Shown piece by piece: positions 370 through 9,232 of a DNA stretch of 64,000 nucleotides. Numbering within the stretch: position 1 is the first letter of the stretch; every line of letters begins with the position of its first letter. The notes under the pieces are model-generated. The model worked only from the letters and a program-made list of their open reading frames with translations, ran no database searches and had not been told where the DNA came from. The position numbers and the translations under genes are program-made. This DNA comes from Roseinatronobacter thiooxidans (lineage in GTDB: Bacteria; Pseudomonadota; Alphaproteobacteria; Rhodobacterales; Rhodobacteraceae), in assembly GCF_001870675.1 (NCBI RefSeq), contig NZ_MEHT01000045.1, positions 1 through 64,000 of the forward strand, in the 5' to 3' direction.

Positions 370-1017
370 TTATAATGTACCGCGAGCGCAAGATGGATGC
401 GGCATCTCCCGCAAGGCGGTGAGGATGCGCTGCCACTCGGCGCTCTTCAGCCCTGTGCCGAGCATGTCTAGGCTGATTTCGATCATGATCGCCGCGCGAG
501 CCCCGGCGTCGATGACACCGGCATAGGGGGCATTCTCGGCCACGGTGAAGCCCTGCCGTTGAACATGACCGCGCAGGGCGTCGGTCCAGTCCAGCGGAGT
601 CAGGCCGGGGCTGGTGCGAAGGTCGATCTCGGGGCGCGCGGCGAAGACCTGTGGCTCGATCCAACAGGGGGGCGTTGGATAGGTGTGCAGATCGATCAGC
701 ATTGCGCCCGCCGCGGCCTTCCGCAGGCGCTGCAAATGCGGGTGGTAGAAGCGGACCAGCAGCTGTGCGCGGTCTTGGGGCAACAGGGTTCTTTGCAAGA
801 TGCGCCCGAAACGATCATGCGTATAGAACACACCGCGCCTGACTCGCGACATATCTTCCTGCGCGTCATCGGCAGCGCGCTCCACATCCAGCAGCACGCG
901 CGATACTCGCACTGTCACGATGTCAGCCTGCGGCCACGCCGCACGCGCGAGCCTGTCGGTATGCAGATCGGCGGCGACGCGGATTTCGGCGCAGAGGGTG
1001 TCGTCCGGAGTGCCCAA
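370..1017 (-). pseudogene. N-formylglutamate amidohydrolase-like gene, 5' truncated
   Basis: The 215 residues match the middle and C-terminal part of the FGase family, which hydrolyses N-formyl-glutamate or related N-acyl amino acids. Visible family signatures are DLHTDRL near the start, a DVERAADD segment, RRGVFYTHDRFGR, and the LIDLHTYP metal/substrate motif. The expected N-terminal strand with a VPH-x-G-type motif is missing. Reading upstream in the same frame gives DAYRAQ and then an in-frame TAA at 1036-1038, and no homologous residues follow beyond it. The only available start is a TTG at 1017 without a clear ribosome-binding site. I read it as a decayed gene cut at its 5' end next to the giant repeat gene; a short functional relative is less likely. 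Confidence 0.6.
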
Positions 1018-1131
1018 TTGTGCCCGATAGGCGTCTTACTGATGCGCTCCGGCGCACTTTGGATAGTCTTAAGAAGGACGCGTGTGGTTTCTTGGCGTTT
1101 TCGACCTGGTGCACCATCCGCCAGCTGAGGC

Positions 1132-1161
1132 GGAAGGGGCGACCTGCAGGTCGCCCCTTCC
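1132..1161. terminator. perfect 30-base palindrome downstream of the giant repeat gene
   Basis: Positions 1132-1161 form a perfect inverted repeat of two 15-base GC-rich arms, so either strand can fold into a long hairpin. It lies eight bases past the stop codon of the leftward repeat-protein gene. No T-run follows on either side, so it may work as an mRNA 3'-end protector or a Rho-assisted terminator and not as a canonical intrinsic terminator. Confidence 0.6.
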
Positions 1162-1169
1162 TCGCAGCA

Positions 1170-4100
1170 TCAGTCGCGCAGCAGACGACTGGTAGCGACG
1201 TTGCCGCCAGCAGAGGCACTCAGCGTATTGCCGGACAGACCAACCGTGCTGGACGTTAGAGCACCGTTTCTGCTGGCGACGTTAAAGCCAACCACACTCG
1301 CAGTAACCGCGCCGGACGCAACCTGACGAGATGTCAGTGCCGTGCTCACCTCAGTCGAAGGAGAGCGACCCGAGACCGAGATGGTGTTGGAGACCCGGTT
1401 CGACACAGCATCCGCGACCAGACGGTTGCCAGACAGATCAACCGACGAGCTGTTGAGGGCCGCTGTTCGAACATTAAGCAAACTGACGGGGTTGGATGGG
1501 GTACCGCCGCCAAAGCTCGCCCGTGCCGTCACCGCACCGGAATTCACCTGGTTTGATGCCGCGGCAAAGGTCCCGGTTGCGTTCAAGGCACCCGGAGTCC
1601 CGGTCCCGACTGTTGCGCCACCCGGCCCTGCGAACAGTGCATTGATCGCCGTTCCCGCGCTGGCATTCAGCACGTTCGTGGCGTCGTTGCCTGCAGCCCG
1701 GGCAACTCCGGTATTGTCAAGTATCGAGATCGAAGAACCGGTCGCATTCTCGAAGGAAAAAGAACCGAAGCGCCCCTGCAGTGAAACGTCACTGGTCACG
1801 GCACTGTCGGAGTTCTGCTGGTTGGCAATCGCCCCGCCAGCCGTCAGCACTGTCGCGGCATTCAACGCGAGCGTATTGCTGGCGCGGTTGGATGTCGCCG
1901 TCGAGTCCAGCGTATTGCCGTTCAACGTTGCGCTGCTGCCAGTTATGGAATCCGAGTTGAAGGGTGAGTTGGTACTCACCAGCAAACCAACTTGCAGAGT
2001 GGCCGCTGACGTGACGAGCTGACCACCTGTCCGCGTCTGGAAGTTCCCCAGCAGGTTGTCAGACGTGCCGCTCACGGTTCCGGTTGCAACAGTTCCTGTA
2101 CCATCGTTACCGGCAATGCTGACGCTTGACAGAGCCGTATTGTCCTGTCCGGTGACCGTTGTGCCACTTGCCGTCAAACTGTTGGTCACATCGTTGCCAA
2201 ATGCGGTCGAGAAGCCGAGGTTGCCATCAACGTTCAACGCGCTGTTAACCACATCATTCAAGCCGCCCCGAGACTCTAGGTCGAGTGTAAAGTCCAAGCG
2301 CGCAGAGGAGGTCACATCAGATATTGCACCACCGCTTTGCTCCGAGGTCAGAACCGACAGACCCGTGACATCCGTATCCGCCGCGAGAGACAGCAGGTTG
2401 TTACCCACATTCCCCGAGACATTCGATTGTGCGATGTTCTGGCTTGCAGAGACACTGCTGCCATTAATCGTTGTTGCAGTATCGATGTCAGTGGTCACGG
2501 TCGCCACGCCTGCGACATCGCCGACAAGGCCCTGGAAGGCCGTGAGGATGTTGTCACCTCTAAGAACACGGTTGGTCCCAACCACATCACCGAGCGCTGC
2601 GAAGGATGCATTTTCGCCAGCGATGCTGACGCCATCGATTTCGGTTGCAGCGATGCTCAGAATATTGGTCTGAATGTTGCCCACGGCCCGTGCAAAGCCG
2701 ATATTGCCATCCGTCGCCAGAGAGCTGTCAACGGCGGAACCGAAAGGACCATTATCCATATCAAGCGTTGCCGTAACACCCGCAGTTGCGGAGACGTTCC
2801 CGATCTGAACCTGCGTGCCGGAAAGTGCAGAAGCACCCGCCGCACTTGTATCGGCCAGAAGGCGCAGCGCGTTGGTGGCATCGTTGCCCATGCCAAAGGA
2901 GCGGGCAAAGTTGTCACTGATGCTCAGACTGCTGTCCGTGGTTAACAGCCCACCGGTATTGGCGGTTCCGCGTATTTGCGATTCGCTGGTCACAGCGGCG
3001 ACACTTGTCTGAACGCTGGACAGCGAGTTGTCCGCGTCCAGGCGAGCGCCAACCTGAGGTTGGAGCGTCACACCGACTGCGGCCAAAGTCGCCGCCTCAC
3101 CCGAGATCGCGTTGCCCGAAAGCGAGACTGTGTTGGTTGCCCGGTTGGATGTGGCCGTGTCAAACGACTGGTTGCCATCGATAGAGACCGTCGAGTTGGT
3201 CACATTGCCTAGGCCGTTTGTCTGCCCGAAGTTGAACGTCGCGGTTGACGACGAGCCAATGGCGATAGGTATGGCGGGCGTCATGCCCACAGGCCCTGTA
3301 CCCGAGGTCTGGACCGATGCAAGACCAGTGGTCGTTTCGGTGATCCCCGCGCTGCCTGTCAAAGCGACGCGGTTGGTTGCAAGGTTCGACATCGCATCCG
3401 ACTGCAAAGCGTTGCCGTCAAGCGATGCACTGCTGTTGATCAGATCGGCATTAGCTGCACCTGTGGCGTTAATGGCAATCGCACCAGCCAACACACCGGT
3501 AGAAGAAATATCGCCAGTTTGAGCCTGCACATTCAGAGCGGCAAAGTCAGCAATCACGCGCGCTATGTTTGCTTCTGTAAAGAACAGATTGTTTCTGCCT
3601 GTCTCTGTAGAATCTGCACGATCAATGGTGGTGGCCGTGACCGACACAGTATTTGCGTTCTGGTTGCCCATAGCAGAGGTAACGGTCACGTTGTTGTCCA
3701 CGCCAACGGTCGAGTCAGAGACTGCGGCTCTCAGAGTGATCCCTGTTGTGCCAGCGTTGAAGGTCGAGGCCGCCGTCACAGCTGCACTGCTGTCCTGTTC
3801 GCTCGTCAGCGCTGCATTCGAGGTGGTTTCGGTTCCGGCATTCAGCGTGATGGACGACGCACCTATGTTGGAGGCGCCGGATGCGGTTGTTATGTTGTCC
3901 GAGATTGACGCGGACGAGTCTGCCAGGCTGGCAACGGTTGCGCTGGGTCCACCCGCCGAGATGCTTGCGTTCGAGATTGTCGTTGCGTCTACGGTTGTTC
4001 CGGAGTTCCGCTGGACACTCGCCAGCCCGCTTGTTGCGGCTGTTAGGGTGTCAGTGCCTGCTGTGGAATCTACGCGTGCAACACCGCGCAAGCTGTCAGC

Positions 4101-6281
4101 CCCGATGATCGCCGTATCCGCGGTCACGTCGAGCGCGTTGGTGACGCGGTTGGCCGTGGTGGTTGAGCGGTTCTGGTTCGCATTGATTGCCAGCGAAGAC
4201 GCATCGATCGATGTGGTGCCAGCAAAATCAGCCTGTGTCAGCGACAGGGTCGTGGTCGAGGCGGCGGATGTTGCCGAATCGATGCTCTGCAACGACACGA
4301 GGGACGAAACAGCCGATGTGTTGTCAGCGAATGCTGGCGCAGTTGCTCCGATTACGTTGGCGTCCAGATCAATCCTGTTGGTTGACGTGTTGCCGCTGGT
4401 GGTGGCCTGCTGGACGTTGCTGGACAAGGAAATCGTGCTGGCATTGATGGCGCCCGCGTCGTTCGCAGCGATCGCCGTTTCACCGATTGTGACACCAAGG
4501 GTTGAGACGGCCGTTGATGTAATGTCAGAACCGGTGATGCGCTGATTGGCGGACACGCCGAAATCTGCAGTGACAAATGAAGAGGTGGAGGAATTAACCC
4601 TACCCTCGCCGCGATCCCGCGTGTTGTTGGACAGCAGAGCGGTGTCGGCATCTGCGCGCAAAAGCGTCTGGCCAGTGTTGCCGCTGGCCTCTGCCACAGA
4701 AAGGTTGCCATCGACCAGGATCGACGATGCTGTCACATCCCCTGCGGCCGTCACAGATAGCGCGAATGCGCCTGTGTCTCCCAAAAGCGCGTTTACACCC
4801 GTGCCACCGAGCCTTTGATCGCTCGCCAGACCGGCGGTCGCCGTGATGCTGGTTGCGCTCAGGTCAATCGCAGTGCCACCGGTGTTGGCGGATGCCAATG
4901 CAAAGGCGGTGTTGTCCGTGACCGAGATGGTCGACCCAGACAATGCACCCCCGAGGGCTGCTGAATCAGCCGTGACAGACAGGCTGTTGCCATCGCTCGA
5001 AGCTTCGATCGTACCTTGATTTGCGCCCGTGCTTTCAATTGCCTGCTGGGAGCCAGCAACAAAGCCGAAACCCGGTACTCCCATAGCAGCATCGTTAACA
5101 AACTGGACAGAGGGGCTCGCAGTATTAGAATTAAACACCCTTCCTCCAGCAGTGTTCGACGAAATTGTGTTGGCGTCGACGCGCAGGAAGGTACCATCGG
5201 CAACAGACGCGCCTGCTCCCGCTCCGCTGAGTGTTGCGACGTTCCCATTGGCCTGTGCCCCGATAGTGTTCGACGACACGGTCAGGCTGGAACCGGTGGC
5301 ATTGTCCAACGCCACAGACAATGTCGAGGTATCTGCTGTCGAAACCAGACCAACATTATTTGTCCCATCGCCCAATTGCTGCTGTGTCAGTACGGCAGCA
5401 CTGTTGTCGAAAGTGGTATCCACAGTCACATCGGTGCCGGTGCTGGCGCGGTTGCCGGTCAGGGACGCGCGGATATCGTTGCCATCGACAGACAGCGCAG
5501 AACCGGTCGCGTCGAGATCCCCAAGAGAGACCGAGATGCCAGACCCCGTGATCGTGGCAGTCGATACCAGACCAGCGCCTTCAACGGCTTGCGTGCTGGC
5601 AACAACGCTGCCGCCACCTGCGACGGACAGCAATTGCTGACTTGTCAGATCGCCACTGTTCAACGTGATCGGGGATGTAATGAACACAGCTTGAGCTTGA
5701 GCGAGATCGCCAGCAAGTTCAGCAGAGATATCGTCGGAAAACACGGATGTCGCGTTGTTCACAGTCGTGATTGCAGAAAGCGTGTTATCGCTGGCCGCAA
5801 GGGAGGTCGATGTCGCATCGCCGACACCAGTGATCGCCAGACTGGAGCCTGTGATCGCTGTGGAAACAGTACCATTTGCAAACTGGCCACTGAGTGTCGC
5901 CAAAGTACCGGCAGAACCATCACCGCTCGACCCGAGTTGATTGGCAACAAGGTTGAACAAGTTGCCCGTTGCCGTCGCGGTCAGGGCGTTATCTTCGATG
6001 CCGACAGCACTTGAGCCGGAGCCCGCAATGCTGGAATTCAGCGCGCCGCCTGCGATGGACGCGCTTACTGCCGCGCGAGAGTCCTGCGTGTTGTTTGCAA
6101 CCGTTTCGAACCCCGTCACATTGGCAGATGTAAAGGCACTCGCTGGCGCGACCTGCGCGCTGTCGATCGTGATGTTAACCGCCTGCGCCAATGCGGGGGT
6201 GTAGGACGCAAGCACGGCGACGCTCGCCCCGCCAAGCAGTCGGGCAATTTGGCCCGTTCTGCGCGCCTGTCTAATCGTCAT
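1170..6281 (-). CDS. giant secreted beta-strand repeat protein (1703 aa)
   Basis: The start at 6281 is chosen because AGGAGA precedes this ATG at proper spacing and opens a Sec signal peptide (basic RQARRTGQ, hydrophobic core, cleavage after ALAQA near residue 34); a longer frame upstream lacks both. The rest is low-complexity Ala/Ser/Thr/Asn/Gly/Val sequence with no cysteine that I can see. It is built from degenerate repeats: an N-box (S-[ST]-hydrophobic-x-hydrophobic-x-x-N, then about eight residues to a second N and often TN) and a Q-box (LTS-x-Q followed by GAVTA-like residues). About 21 N-boxes occur with alternating spacing. There is no C-terminal autotransporter barrel, RTX repeat or LPXTG-like anchor; it ends directly on a repeat. 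A beta-solenoid or stacked-strand extracellular structure is inferred. Similar long proteins in Rhodobacteraceae are usually named only 'beta strand repeat-containing protein'; no function is known to me. Confidence 0.85.
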   Translation of the reverse strand: MTIRQARRTGQIARLLGGASVAVLASYTPALAQAVNITIDSAQVAPASAFTSANVTGFETVANNTQDSRAAVSASIAGGALNSSIAGSGSSAVGIEDNALTATATGNLFNLVANQLGSSGDGSAGTLATLSGQFANGTVSTAITGSSLAITGVGDATSTSLAASDNTLSAITTVNNATSVFSDDISAELAGDLAQAQAVFITSPITLNSGDLTSQQLLSVAGGGSVVASTQAVEGAGLVSTATITGSGISVSLGDLDATGSALSVDGNDIRASLTGNRASTGTDVTVDTTFDNSAAVLTQQQLGDGTNNVGLVSTADTSTLSVALDNATGSSLTVSSNTIGAQANGNVATLSGAGAGASVADGTFLRVDANTISSNTAGGRVFNSNTASPSVQFVNDAAMGVPGFGFVAGSQQAIESTGANQGTIEASSDGNSLSVTADSAALGGALSGSTISVTDNTAFALASANTGGTAIDLSATSITATAGLASDQRLGGTGVNALLGDTGAFALSVTAAGDVTASSILVDGNLSVAEASGNTGQTLLRADADTALLSNNTRDRGEGRVNSSTSSFVTADFGVSANQRITGSDITSTAVSTLGVTIGETAIAANDAGAINASTISLSSNVQQATTSGNTSTNRIDLDANVIGATAPAFADNTSAVSSLVSLQSIDSATSAASTTTLSLTQADFAGTTSIDASSLAINANQNRSTTTANRVTNALDVTADTAIIGADSLRGVARVDSTAGTDTLTAATSGLASVQRNSGTTVDATTISNASISAGGPSATVASLADSSASISDNITTASGASNIGASSITLNAGTETTSNAALTSEQDSSAAVTAASTFNAGTTGITLRAAVSDSTVGVDNNVTVTSAMGNQNANTVSVTATTIDRADSTETGRNNLFFTEANIARVIADFAALNVQAQTGDISSTGVLAGAIAINATGAANADLINSSASLDGNALQSDAMSNLATNRVALTGSAGITETTTGLASVQTSGTGPVGMTPAIPIAIGSSSTATFNFGQTNGLGNVTNSTVSIDGNQSFDTATSNRATNTVSLSGNAISGEAATLAAVGVTLQPQVGARLDADNSLSSVQTSVAAVTSESQIRGTANTGGLLTTDSSLSISDNFARSFGMGNDATNALRLLADTSAAGASALSGTQVQIGNVSATAGVTATLDMDNGPFGSAVDSSLATDGNIGFARAVGNIQTNILSIAATEIDGVSIAGENASFAALGDVVGTNRVLRGDNILTAFQGLVGDVAGVATVTTDIDTATTINGSSVSASQNIAQSNVSGNVGNNLLSLAADTDVTGLSVLTSEQSGGAISDVTSSARLDFTLDLESRGGLNDVVNSALNVDGNLGFSTAFGNDVTNSLTASGTTVTGQDNTALSSVSIAGNDGTGTVATGTVSGTSDNLLGNFQTRTGGQLVTSAATLQVGLLVSTNSPFNSDSITGSSATLNGNTLDSTATSNRASNTLALNAATVLTAGGAIANQQNSDSAVTSDVSLQGRFGSFSFENATGSSISILDNTGVARAAGNDATNVLNASAGTAINALFAGPGGATVGTGTPGALNATGTFAAASNQVNSGAVTARASFGGGTPSNPVSLLNVRTAALNSSSVDLSGNRLVADAVSNRVSNTISVSGRSPSTEVSTALTSRQVASGAVTASVVGFNVASRNGALTSSTVGLSGNTLSASAGGNVATSRLLRD

Positions 6282-6639
6282 GGATTTATCTCCTGTTGTA
6301 TTGAAGGTCGTCCAATGCGGACACGCGCTTATCTGCCTCCTGGAAACTGCCCAAAATGTGACAGCTCCGTTCCGTGACACGCGGCGGGCTTTGGACATAA
6401 ATCCTGTATACCGCGCGTGGTAATTCACACGCCCCTCCCGCTTTCAGCAGCGAGCGTGGAAGCCAGCGCGGAGGGGAGGGCTAATCGGCGACGTGTGCTT
6501 GCAACCAAGACTAACTGGGAGCAGTTCTATTCAAGGTTCACCTATAGGCGCAAATTATACTTTGATAATTATGGCTCTCTTAGGACACTTTACTCTTTCC
6601 AAATAAGAATTGGATTCTCTTATTAAATTCCATTGATCT
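6282..6639. other. gene-free upstream region of the repeat gene
   Basis: No credible coding region is seen. The right part (about 6541-6630) is clearly more AT-rich than the surroundings and holds a TATAAT on the minus strand at 6554-6559. That could be a -10 element for the leftward repeat gene with a long leader, but no convincing -35 partner is visible. The AT-rich tract borders the IS256 remnant and may simply be foreign DNA. Confidence 0.4.
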
Positions 6640-6870
6640 CTGGGGCGGAACGTTCCGATACAGACAGGACCCGGGCGCGCGTCGGCGGTTTTGACCGTCG
6701 AGTTTGCGCCACTTCTTGTGCACTGACATCATCAGTTTGAAGGCAATGGCCATGCAGGCCTTGCCACTGAGGCATCCCTTGATGCGTTTGGTTCGGTGGC
6801 GCACGGTGGCAAAGGTGCTTTCGCTCGGGTTGGACGTCCGGATGTGCTTCCAGTGTTCCGTCGGGTATCA
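6640..6870 (-). mobile_element. IS256-type transposase remnant (C-terminal fragment)
   Basis: Translation of the minus strand gives EHWKHIRTSNPSESTFATV followed by RHRTKRIKGCLSGKACM and then AFKLMMSVHKKWRKLDGQN. This is the conserved C-terminal block of IS256-family transposases, including the normally invariant NPIEST (here NPSEST). An in-frame TGA at 6868-6870 sits directly upstream, and the conserved sequence stops after LDGQN without the usual end. No terminal inverted repeats or target duplication were seen. It is a dead fragment that probably records an insertion that damaged the neighbouring genes. Confidence 0.75.
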
Positions 6871-7050
6871 CCCGACGCCTTCCGGAACTTTTTTCAAACC
6901 ACCAGACAGACCTTTCGCGTCGATTTACTGGTGTTTGGGATAGGGACGCGATCACGCTCACAGCCGAGGCGCTTGAAGATAGCGAATGGCAGCGATGTCG
7001 CGCGTACCGTCACCTCTAGGATTTCCGCCTTTTCTGTCTGGACGGCAATT

Positions 7051-7395
7051 ACACATGACCGACAGTGACATGATTGCCAGATACAGCGGCCACGCCGGGT
7101 TCATCACCCGGTCGAAGCTGTAGAGCGCATAGGCATAGAGCAGTTAACCTACCAGCCCTGCACAGATCAGCCAGCCCTTGCCACAGCACCGCCGCAGCCG
7201 CGCATTGACCACAAGCAGCGCCAGCGCTGCGTGGGCGGAGACGGTTTCTTGGCTCCAGGCGCCGGGGCGCAGGTGGTCGGGGACGGCGGCATAGGGGTCG
7301 GGCAGGATCAGGGCCGCGGCGACGGCGGCCAGTGTCGCCGTGGCGACGGCATCGGAGAGGCGCAAGAGGGTCGGAGCACTCACGGGGACAATCAT
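7051..7395 (-). pseudogene. integral membrane protein gene broken by an in-frame stop
   Basis: The frame opens with ATG at 7395, one base after the stop of the DUF6544-like gene. It encodes a hydrophobic helix (LSDAVATATLAAVAAALIL), a polar loop and a second helix ending KGWLICAGLVG, then meets TAA at 7144-7146. Read through in the same frame, it continues LLYAYALYSFDRVMNPAWPL and YLAIMSLS, which looks like the next two membrane segments of a multi-spanning protein family with a typical 'YNYALYxF' stretch. Similarity is lost near 7055, next to the IS256 remnant. A TAT/TAC to TAA change plus a 3' truncation explains this. The original function is unknown. Confidence 0.6.
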
Positions 7396-7396
7396 C

Positions 7397-8251
7397 TCAG
7401 AACTCCGCTTTGGTGATATGAGCAAGGAAGAAGGGGGCATAGTCATGCATACCCCACATGTTGCCCAACTCCACCCGCGAGGGGATCAGAAAGCCCTGAT
7501 AGCGGGTCATCTCCAGCATCCGCCCGCCGAAGGGTTGAAGGCGATGCACGCGCTTCGCGTTGGCATCGGTCCAGCGCAGCGCCCAGACATCAAGCGGGTT
7601 GCCTGCGGCATCCAGCGTGATCTGCATGGGTTCGATCCCTTGCACACCCGCAAAACGAACCACGGCACTGTCGGGGCCAGTCTGCACCCATTCCGCCCCG
7701 TACTGCGGCAACAGGCTTGCCGGAGCCCAGATGGACTCGAGCATCACCCGCGTTGCGGCGGCGCTTTCATGGTCAGCAGTGCCACCTATCCGCGCCAGCG
7801 GGATCAGGCCGCGCAGCCAGAACTTGGTCCAGCTGTCCACGGAACCGCCCGTGGGCGCGTGGTAACCGTCTGACCCGGCGAAGCGCATCAGCCCCTGCCC
7901 CACCTCGGCTTGCCAGACGAAACCTTGCGCGGGCGGCGCGAGGATCTGGCGCGCGGTCATGGCCATCTCATTGCCGTTCATGATGAAGCTGCCGGCCATT
8001 TCCAGCCGCACCACCCGGTGCAGGGGTGTGCCGGGGGCAATGGCACGGGCAAAGTAGCGCTGCGCCACCTCAGGCAAATCCGCGACCATGGCGGGGTCGT
8101 AGGGTGCTGGGTCAGTCTCGCGCACGGCCTCCAGTGCGGCCCAGACCTGCGCGGATTTCGCCTGATCGCGGGAATGGACCCAAAGGCCGAGGACGACGGC
8201 GGCCACCAGCAGGGCCGCAAGGACAACGAGGATGATCTTGAAGATGGTCAT
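7397..8251 (-). CDS. DUF6544-like membrane-anchored protein (284 aa)
   Basis: One N-terminal hydrophobic segment (residues 4-24) is followed by a mostly beta-rich soluble domain. The segment LPEVAQRYFARAIAPGTP and the later GFVWQAEVGQG, DSWTKFWLRGLIPLARIGG and YQGFLIPSRVELG segments resemble the DUF6544/DUF6920 group of uncharacterised bacterial proteins, which may have a lipid-binding-like beta fold. It lies 30 bp after the alpha/beta hydrolase and leads into the broken membrane-protein gene, probably in one transcript. No catalytic residues can be assigned. Confidence 0.6.
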   Translation of the reverse strand: MTIFKIILVVLAALLVAAVVLGLWVHSRDQAKSAQVWAALEAVRETDPAPYDPAMVADLPEVAQRYFARAIAPGTPLHRVVRLEMAGSFIMNGNEMAMTARQILAPPAQGFVWQAEVGQGLMRFAGSDGYHAPTGGSVDSWTKFWLRGLIPLARIGGTADHESAAATRVMLESIWAPASLLPQYGAEWVQTGPDSAVVRFAGVQGIEPMQITLDAAGNPLDVWALRWTDANAKRVHRLQPFGGRMLEMTRYQGFLIPSRVELGNMWGMHDYAPFFLAHITKAEF

Positions 8252-8281
8252 CAGGCAAAATCCGAAAACTGTGTGGGGCCA

Positions 8282-9232
8282 CTACTCCGCAACGGACGGA
8301 GCATTGATGGTGAGAAATTCGGCTATCCGTTGCCGGACCGCGTCTTGATGGCCCAGCAGCAGGTGGCCGCCACTGTCGAGGAAAAGCGTCTCGGCACCGG
8401 CGATCCGCTCTGCGGTGAAACGGGCCGTCGAGAACGGCGTGAGCCGGTCATCGCGCGCGTGGACGAGCAAGACCGGCACGCGGATCGCTGACGGGTTGAT
8501 CGCGGCGGCGGGGTCGATGGCCGCGGCTTCATTTGCCAGCCCCGCGCGGCGCAGGGTCACGGGCAGAAAAGCCGCGATCATCGCGTCAAGGAAACCGGCC
8601 TCAGCCGCGGTCATCTGCGCGACCAGTTCTGGCCGGGCGTCGAACATCGGGGCCAGTGCGCGGGGCGAAACGCGCAACAATGCCCAAAGCGGGAAATCCG
8701 TGGCAAACAGCGCGTCGTACAGCCAAAGCGGTACCGGAAGCTCCTGCTCCTCGGCGGTCAGGGGGGCAAAGGGGGCGAGCGAGAGCAGGATCAGTGCTTG
8801 CGTGCGGTCCGGATGGCGCAGGGCGAATTGCAGTGCAGGCGGCACACCGCCGGACATTGCCAGCAGCGTCACCCGCCGGATGCCAAGGCGGTCCAGCATC
8901 GCGGCAAAGGCATCGGCCTGTGCGGCAGTTGAGGGGTTGGCGGGCAGCGCCGAGCCGGGGTAGCCAAAGCGCGAGGGCGCGATCCAGCGATAGCCTGCGG
9001 GCAGGAAGGCCTCCGCCAGAAGACGTCCCTGATCATGCCCGCCCCCCGCACCGTGAATCGTCAGCACCGGGACGCCCGCACCGCCAGAGGCGAAGGCTAC
9101 CGGGGCGAAGCGCGTATCGGCGACACTGGATAAGGATGACATGCGGTCCTGCATGTCTTGCCGAAACACCAGCCAGACCGCGCCGACAAAGACAACGAGG
9201 ACCAGTGTGATCAGGACGAGGACTCGACGCAT
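8282..9232 (-). CDS. alpha/beta hydrolase, membrane-anchored (316 aa)
   Basis: The start at 9232 is preceded by GAAGG with six bases of spacing. An upstream ATG at 9268, directly behind the stop of the preceding hydrolase gene, is an alternative. Residues 1-23 form a signal anchor. The fold signatures are IHGAGGG (residues 59-65, oxyanion region), a nucleophile elbow LLAMSGGVP with Ser127, a late Asp in LLVHARDDRLTPF, and a catalytic His in LDSGGHLLLGH. The substrate is unknown; esterase, lipase or peptidase activity is possible. It belongs to the leftward hydrolase cluster. Confidence 0.8.
   Translation of the reverse strand: MRRVLVLITLVLVVFVGAVWLVFRQDMQDRMSSLSSVADTRFAPVAFASGGAGVPVLTIHGAGGGHDQGRLLAEAFLPAGYRWIAPSRFGYPGSALPANPSTAAQADAFAAMLDRLGIRRVTLLAMSGGVPPALQFALRHPDRTQALILLSLAPFAPLTAEEQELPVPLWLYDALFATDFPLWALLRVSPRALAPMFDARPELVAQMTAAEAGFLDAMIAAFLPVTLRRAGLANEAAAIDPAAAINPSAIRVPVLLVHARDDRLTPFSTARFTAERIAGAETLFLDSGGHLLLGHQDAVRQRIAEFLTINAPSVAE

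Follow-up and report, generated by a model that had tools for sequence, protein, structure and literature searches.

The window (the whole stretch of 64,000 nucleotides analysed here) encodes a giant protein built from ten two-part repeat units. Its architecture is conserved over two alphaproteobacterial families, in which its relatives often adjoin HfaB-like outer-membrane channels that form a single clade. On balance we favour the reading, drawn from sequence comparison, that the window giant is a substrate of an HfaB-type (curli-like) exporter and makes a surface fibre or anchor.

Repeat architecture of the window protein

The gene (1170..6281) has an ATG start and encodes 1703 residues in an open reading frame supported by full-length alignment with paralogues and orthologues. 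It lies on the minus strand, a correction to the earlier note, which measured the motif positions on the plus strand. AGGAG, a putative ribosome-binding site (6290..6294, minus strand), is found in identical letters 5' of the paralogue giant1. Residues 1-34 (6180..6281, minus strand) look by eye like a Sec-type signal peptide with putative cleavage after AQA, and are followed by an N-terminal pre-repeat segment, residues 35-84 (6030..6179, minus strand). Beyond the stop codon is a perfect 13-bp inverted repeat (1132..1161, minus strand), a possible terminator lacking a T run; this hairpin region, 1120-1172, folds at -35.4 kcal/mol (z -5.1).

Twenty N-boxes were picked by eye from a list of regular expression matches, and their pairing gives ten units, all on the minus strand. 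All ten were placed by regular expression and HMM, among them unit 1 (N-box residues 98 and 166; 5520..6029), unit 2 (268 and 338; 4953..5519), unit 3 (457 and 526; 4458..4952), unit 6 (957 and 1037; 2952..3452) and unit 8 (1282 and 1354; 1962..2477). In three others the eye and the HMM differ slightly on one box, namely unit 4 (622 and 700, the latter 702 by HMM; 3936..4457), unit 5 (796 and 863, the latter 864 by HMM; 3453..3935) and unit 9 (1454, or 1456 by HMM, and 1523; 1467..1961). Unit 7 (1124 and 1193; 2478..2951) was the query of the one-unit structure prediction below, and unit 10 (1619 and 1685; 1173..1466) is truncated, the protein ending just past its second N-box.

Successive N-boxes are separated by 68, 102, 70, 119, 69, 96, 78, 96, 67, 94, 80, 87, 69, 89, 72, 100, 69, 96 and 66 residues. 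The ten short intervals (66-80 aa, mean 70.8) and the nine long ones (87-119 aa, mean 97.7) alternate strictly: each of the ten odd-numbered intervals is shorter than any of the nine even-numbered ones, an arrangement expected by chance in 1 of 92,378 orders. The earlier note had described strict alternation over 16 steps, followed by an irregular spacing of 99, on a count of 21 boxes. The extra box, near 5169, is a sub-motif inside unit 2; with it dropped the irregularity disappears, and the alternation extends to 19 of 19 intervals. The same note's unit of two unequal halves also stands, at a mean length of 169 aa (158-189) in place of about 164. Halves of one type are more alike than halves of different types, with a mean z of 3.4 for AA, 2.8 for BB and 2.3 for AB pairs (label permutation p 0.003). 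An HMM of the 20 boxes, scored against 100 shuffles, returned no domain above 10 bits; it had been built on those same boxes.

A Q-box had been attributed to each half, which is nearly so: the Q at the column that is invariant in eight relatives is present in 15 of 19 intervals. Where it is present, the arm from N to Q spans 32-34 residues in six of seven short halves (43 in the remaining one) and 54-61 in seven of eight long halves (75 in the remaining one), while the arm from Q to the next N spans 32-44 residues in short and long halves alike. Only the N-to-Q arm is unequal, and the alternation therefore comes down to its being about 22 residues longer in every other half.

Self-comparison, which had been proposed as a check, shows a unit-length signal that is present without being overwhelming. 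In the identity-lag spectrum (30 shuffles) lags 165 and 162 are strongest (z 3.9 and 3.5), 161 and 169 are also in the top seven, and there is a smoothed harmonic near 330-340; lag 134 ranks third (z 3.4) and fits no unit, and the top seven also include 80 and 100. A signal of this modest size is to be expected when unit lengths vary.

Structure prediction and database searches

AlphaFold2 predictions gave a pLDDT of 34.2 for two units and 40.8 for one, from alignments of 7 and 15 rows respectively, made up mostly of internal repeats of the window protein. Because alignments of this depth are too shallow, the low pLDDT is not counted as disorder. The suggestion that such a protein had not been described fits the search results: the window giant has no match that exceeds chance in Pfam, NCBIfam or PHROGs (best E of 0.5, 0.079 and 0.075, respectively), and a profile of the family has none among PDB sequences at E<=1. 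No paper naming such a protein or family appeared among the titles and abstract openings listed in searches of an open-access library, a scope with few subscription papers.

A rare family of giants with a nearly constant box number

Three paralogues lie in a row on contig C11 of the same genome, outside the window and downstream of a gene for an HfaB-like (CsgG-family) export channel. Two of them are full-length (56% and 40% identity) and one is half-length (35% over its best stretch). These other proteins give more independent evidence for the boxes. With an HMM trained on the window protein alone, the paralogue P0002 has 20 domains above 2 bits; after retraining on nine family members, the HMM gives 20 boxes and 17 of 17 turning points in each of P0002 and P0003. 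The half-length paralogue giant3 (934 aa) has 9 boxes, as has its counterpart (933 aa) in G027, the second genome of the window's genus with a family member; we infer that ten boxes, or five units, would be expected of such half-length proteins.

A second alphaproteobacterial family (f39) also has full-length relatives, with 22-25% identity, and full-length giants as a whole measure 1643-2057 aa. The box count is exactly 20 in eight of the 12 full-length members, seven of which alternate strictly, L094 having one tie. In L067 and L096 the count is 19, and a single interval is roughly twice the usual length (178 and 170, respectively); in L067 three successive intervals (83, 100, 101) are also off pattern. 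P0008 (1835 aa), counted at 21, shows a split, a double gap and a slip, and P0009 (2057 aa) has 23 boxes and 22 of 22 alternating intervals. Five of the 12 scored members (L067, L068, L094, L095 and L096) were left out of the training of the N-box HMM.

Across eight full-length relatives 77 alignment columns are invariant, including 33 N and 15 Q. Residual interval correlations are significant for every pair within a family (p 0.0005-0.036), while fine-spacing collinearity between the two families is significant in none of 15 pairs (r -0.26 to 0.29). What the two families have in common is limited to the alternation, the box number and the N/Q alignment columns. Defined by about 20 N-boxes, alternating spacing and full-length collinear alignment, the family includes the window protein.

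Its distribution looks rare and patchy. A C-terminal profile (A1) has matches in two of 37 genomes of the genus, three of 394 of the family (the own genome, G438 and G328) and five of 385 of the class. The match in G328 is weak (E 1.4e-4, in a 121-aa frame with one stop) and was set aside as chance. A full-length profile (A2) matches in five of 385 genomes of the class, these being the own genome and four of family f39, and in one of 189 of the family, the own genome only, in a draw that may not include G438. These counts are lower bounds, since few candidates were scored per genome. Among genome contigs A1 found one locus; no relative turned up on plasmids or viral contigs, and an HfaB search of genome contigs confirmed none.

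HfaB-like channels beside the giants

On C11 the genes follow one another on one strand in the order 255-aa gene, 319-aa HfaB-like gene, giant1, giant2, PG_binding_1 gene, SapC gene and giant3. In G765 and G466 the order is a 236-264-aa gene, an HfaB gene with a C-terminal OmpA (peptidoglycan-binding) domain (L094:7354-8730 and L095:8733-10049), a 293/402-aa gene and a giant of 1727/1731 aa; a PG_binding_1 gene also lies 3' of the giant in G765. Judged by ORF sizes, the order in G593 is the same, and its HfaB groups with theirs. In G438 the HfaB-like gene (L070:14582-15769) is divergent from a 2057-aa giant, and its tail matches the FtsN model weakly (E 0.0026) and looks SPOR-like by eye. The 255-aa gene can be aligned to the 236-264-aa genes of three relatives (28-30% identity). 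Directly after HfaB, where an HfaD would lie, stands giant1; one gene intervenes in G765, G466 and G593, and the window copy has no intact hfaB alongside.

In all, an HfaB-like gene adjoins a giant in five of the seven giant-bearing genomes, from two families, and all seven have some CsgG-family gene. Linkage was not seen in G027 (88% complete, giant on a 4.2-kb contig), where the two CsgG-family genes found are both in other clades, or in G689 (giants on small contigs), where the one found is also in another clade. The HfaB model NF037935 scores 187-232 bits with the linked channels in four of four scored, below its curated cut-off of 300 bits, and the curli CsgG model gives the same four 33-54 bits, far below the HfaB-model scores. 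In a tree of 23 rows the five giant-linked HfaBs group together as a single clade (fork 93/94; group table 98/99), distinct from the remaining CsgG-family rows and near an HfaD-linked group, with deeper forks weak or open.

Two further CsgG-family clusters (L109:5254-8209 and L110:5984-7977) have neighbouring probable secreted proteins of 313 and 363 aa with no Pfam match, and L109 also contains a 174-aa gene whose N-terminus looks, by eye, similar to that of the 255-aa gene on C11. A SapC-family gene stands 5' of giant3 in the two genomes of the genus that carry this half-length protein (own genome, L010:2136-5674, by Pfam; G027, L008:548-3908, by eye).

This SapC association would suit giants that are S-layer-like or large adhesins, using another secretion route or remaining periplasmic, for which the HfaB neighbourhood is incidental. 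So would the position of the window copy and of five second-family giants (in G466, G593 and G765, on contigs without any CsgG-family match) away from such channels. We consider this improbable, as the HfaB linkage recurs in the five genomes, across two families and with one HfaB clade, and neither Pfam nor NCBIfam shows a domain of the autotransporter, RTX, T9SS or S-layer kind in the window protein.

Origin of the window copy

The segment of some 210 bp upstream of the window gene (6282..6493, minus strand) is about 84% identical to that of giant1 by sequence comparison. Near its far end is a fossil hfaB 3' end (6427..6504, minus strand); tblastn over window 6201-9000 (E 7e-6) places its 26 aa against the C-terminal end of the C11 HfaB, at 62% identity. 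Together they indicate descent from an hfaB-giant segment, if not for the whole window copy then at least for the region 5' of it. Within the gene, identity to giant1 drops from about 86% to about 55% over the first 330 bp, and coding third positions of the two match at only 38%. The 5' flank and the coding part thus seem to differ in age, and the 5' end of the gene may have been recombined from giant1 or be strongly constrained.

An unlinked copy beside a fossil hfaB tail might be thought a decaying, functionless duplicate, which we regard as very improbable: 1703 codons have stayed open despite 44% amino-acid divergence from giant1, the box pattern is kept, and a dN of 0.41 against a dS of 1.98 (near saturation) points to purifying selection over the time since the two genes diverged.

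Comparison with the Hfa and curli systems

Passages of PMC6707917 describe HfaB as resembling CsgG, the surface localisation of Caulobacter HfaA and HfaD as dependent on HfaB, and holdfast anchoring as the work of HfaA, HfaB and HfaD, with the direct polysaccharide tether among them an open question. The giant clusters are like this system in their order of small gene, HfaB and repeat protein, in their HfaB-family channel and in having a repeat protein with, by eye, Q/N/G-rich motifs. They differ from it in size, the HfaD-type proteins compared having about 240-450 aa, in the OmpA domain on the HfaB of G765 and G466, and in the absence of profile homology: hhalign of giants against HfaD found none (probability 0.1% and 0.4%). 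Nor does the half-unit HMM match clearly, its best-domain scores with four HfaD-type proteins being reached by 11, 44, 16 and 1 of 300 shuffles; the last of these, L107, itself a sub-cut-off HfaD match, is no more than suggestive of a remote giant-HfaD link. The own genome has no match at E<=10 to the HfaD model NF037936, with which the Caulobacter vibrioides control scores over the cut-off, and none to the HfaA model NF037934; hhalign of the 255-aa gene family against HfaA likewise found no homology (probability 9%).

With curli (CsgA/CsgG, type VIII secretion) the giants share a CsgG-superfamily channel and a repeat protein rich in A, S, T, G and N. They lack a curlin-repeat match, have a two-part unit of about 169 aa and a mostly constant box number, and no match to CsgE or CsgF is found among the seven C11 proteins scanned. 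Alphaproteobacterial curli-like clusters in G065 and G115 also combine a small secreted gene, CsgG and repeat proteins (named by eye), but their CsgGs are in another clade. Perhaps the giants work in the manner of HfaD or curli; the comparisons do not support placing them in either group.

It is doubtful, in our assessment, that the giants are amyloid fibre subunits, like curlin (CsgA) in function but with a separately evolved repeat, in which the long half would equal a short half lengthened by one extra rung, of about 22 residues. Such subunits would accord with the dominance of N and Q in the invariant columns, with the CsgG superfamily of the linked channel and with the size of the excess in long halves, close to the curlin repeat, which averages 23 +/- 5 aa in passages of PMC10192328. 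They accord poorly with the lack of a match to the curlin repeat PF07012 in the window protein (Pfam, E<=1) and with the three curlin-like (by eye) proteins of G065 and G115, none of which matches the half-unit HMM (best domains -1.4 to -2.1 bits). The hydrophobic periodicity peaks at lag 20 (z 8.8), a 22-23-residue rung period being absent as such from the window giant (lag 22 z 0.2, lag 23 z -4.5). The box number, too, is mostly 20, against the 4-62 of curlin repeats in the same source. Earlier, PMC3521004 reported homologues of CsgA that reach 529 aa and 22 repeats. The nearly constant repeat number of the giants stands against the widely varying one that both papers give for curlins.

Proposed role

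Returning to export through an HfaB-type channel, we find it plausible, from the leader seen by eye and the HfaB/CsgG-type exporters that adjoin family members, that the window giant is secreted, extracellular and fibrous. Since its relatives often adjoin a channel like that of the Caulobacter glue anchor, it is probably a cell-surface fibre or tether.

The giant would be exported by Sec via its N-terminal leader, and the unfolded chain would then cross the HfaB-like outer-membrane channel (CsgG superfamily) in a type VIII-like secretion. Outside the cell the ten two-part units would take the form of a long, beta-rich rod in which Asn and Gln are stacked. The HfaB complex, which in some relatives bears a peptidoglycan-binding domain or has one encoded nearby, would anchor this rod to the cell. 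The rod might serve as a surface fibre or adhesive tether, in the place that HfaD has in the Caulobacter hfaABD operon. The window copy would need an HfaB encoded elsewhere in the genome.

More tentatively, the giants could be HfaB-exported, non-curlin amyloid-like rods of nearly fixed length, in which the long half holds an extra rung, giving a ruler-like tether that OmpA-fused HfaB would lock to peptidoglycan in some species. By pure inference, such a tether would be about 35 nm long if some 23 residues make one 0.48-nm rung. HfaB-type channels here adjoin proteins about four times the size of HfaD, as judged by two relatives over the HfaD model cut-off. Testable now are the export of 1700-residue chains by CsgG/HfaB, the control of tether length by repeat number, and OmpA-fused HfaB as a built-in wall anchor.

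Other features around the window gene

The plus strand opposite the window giant (1342-6204) contains many long ORFs, of up to 332 aa, which look like shadow ORFs rather than genes. A transposase remnant recognised by eye at 6670-6849 was dropped, having zero Pfam matches. Just downstream of the giant and on the same strand, window positions 370-1020 hold a frame of the N-formylglutamate amidohydrolase family (PF05013, E 4e-21).
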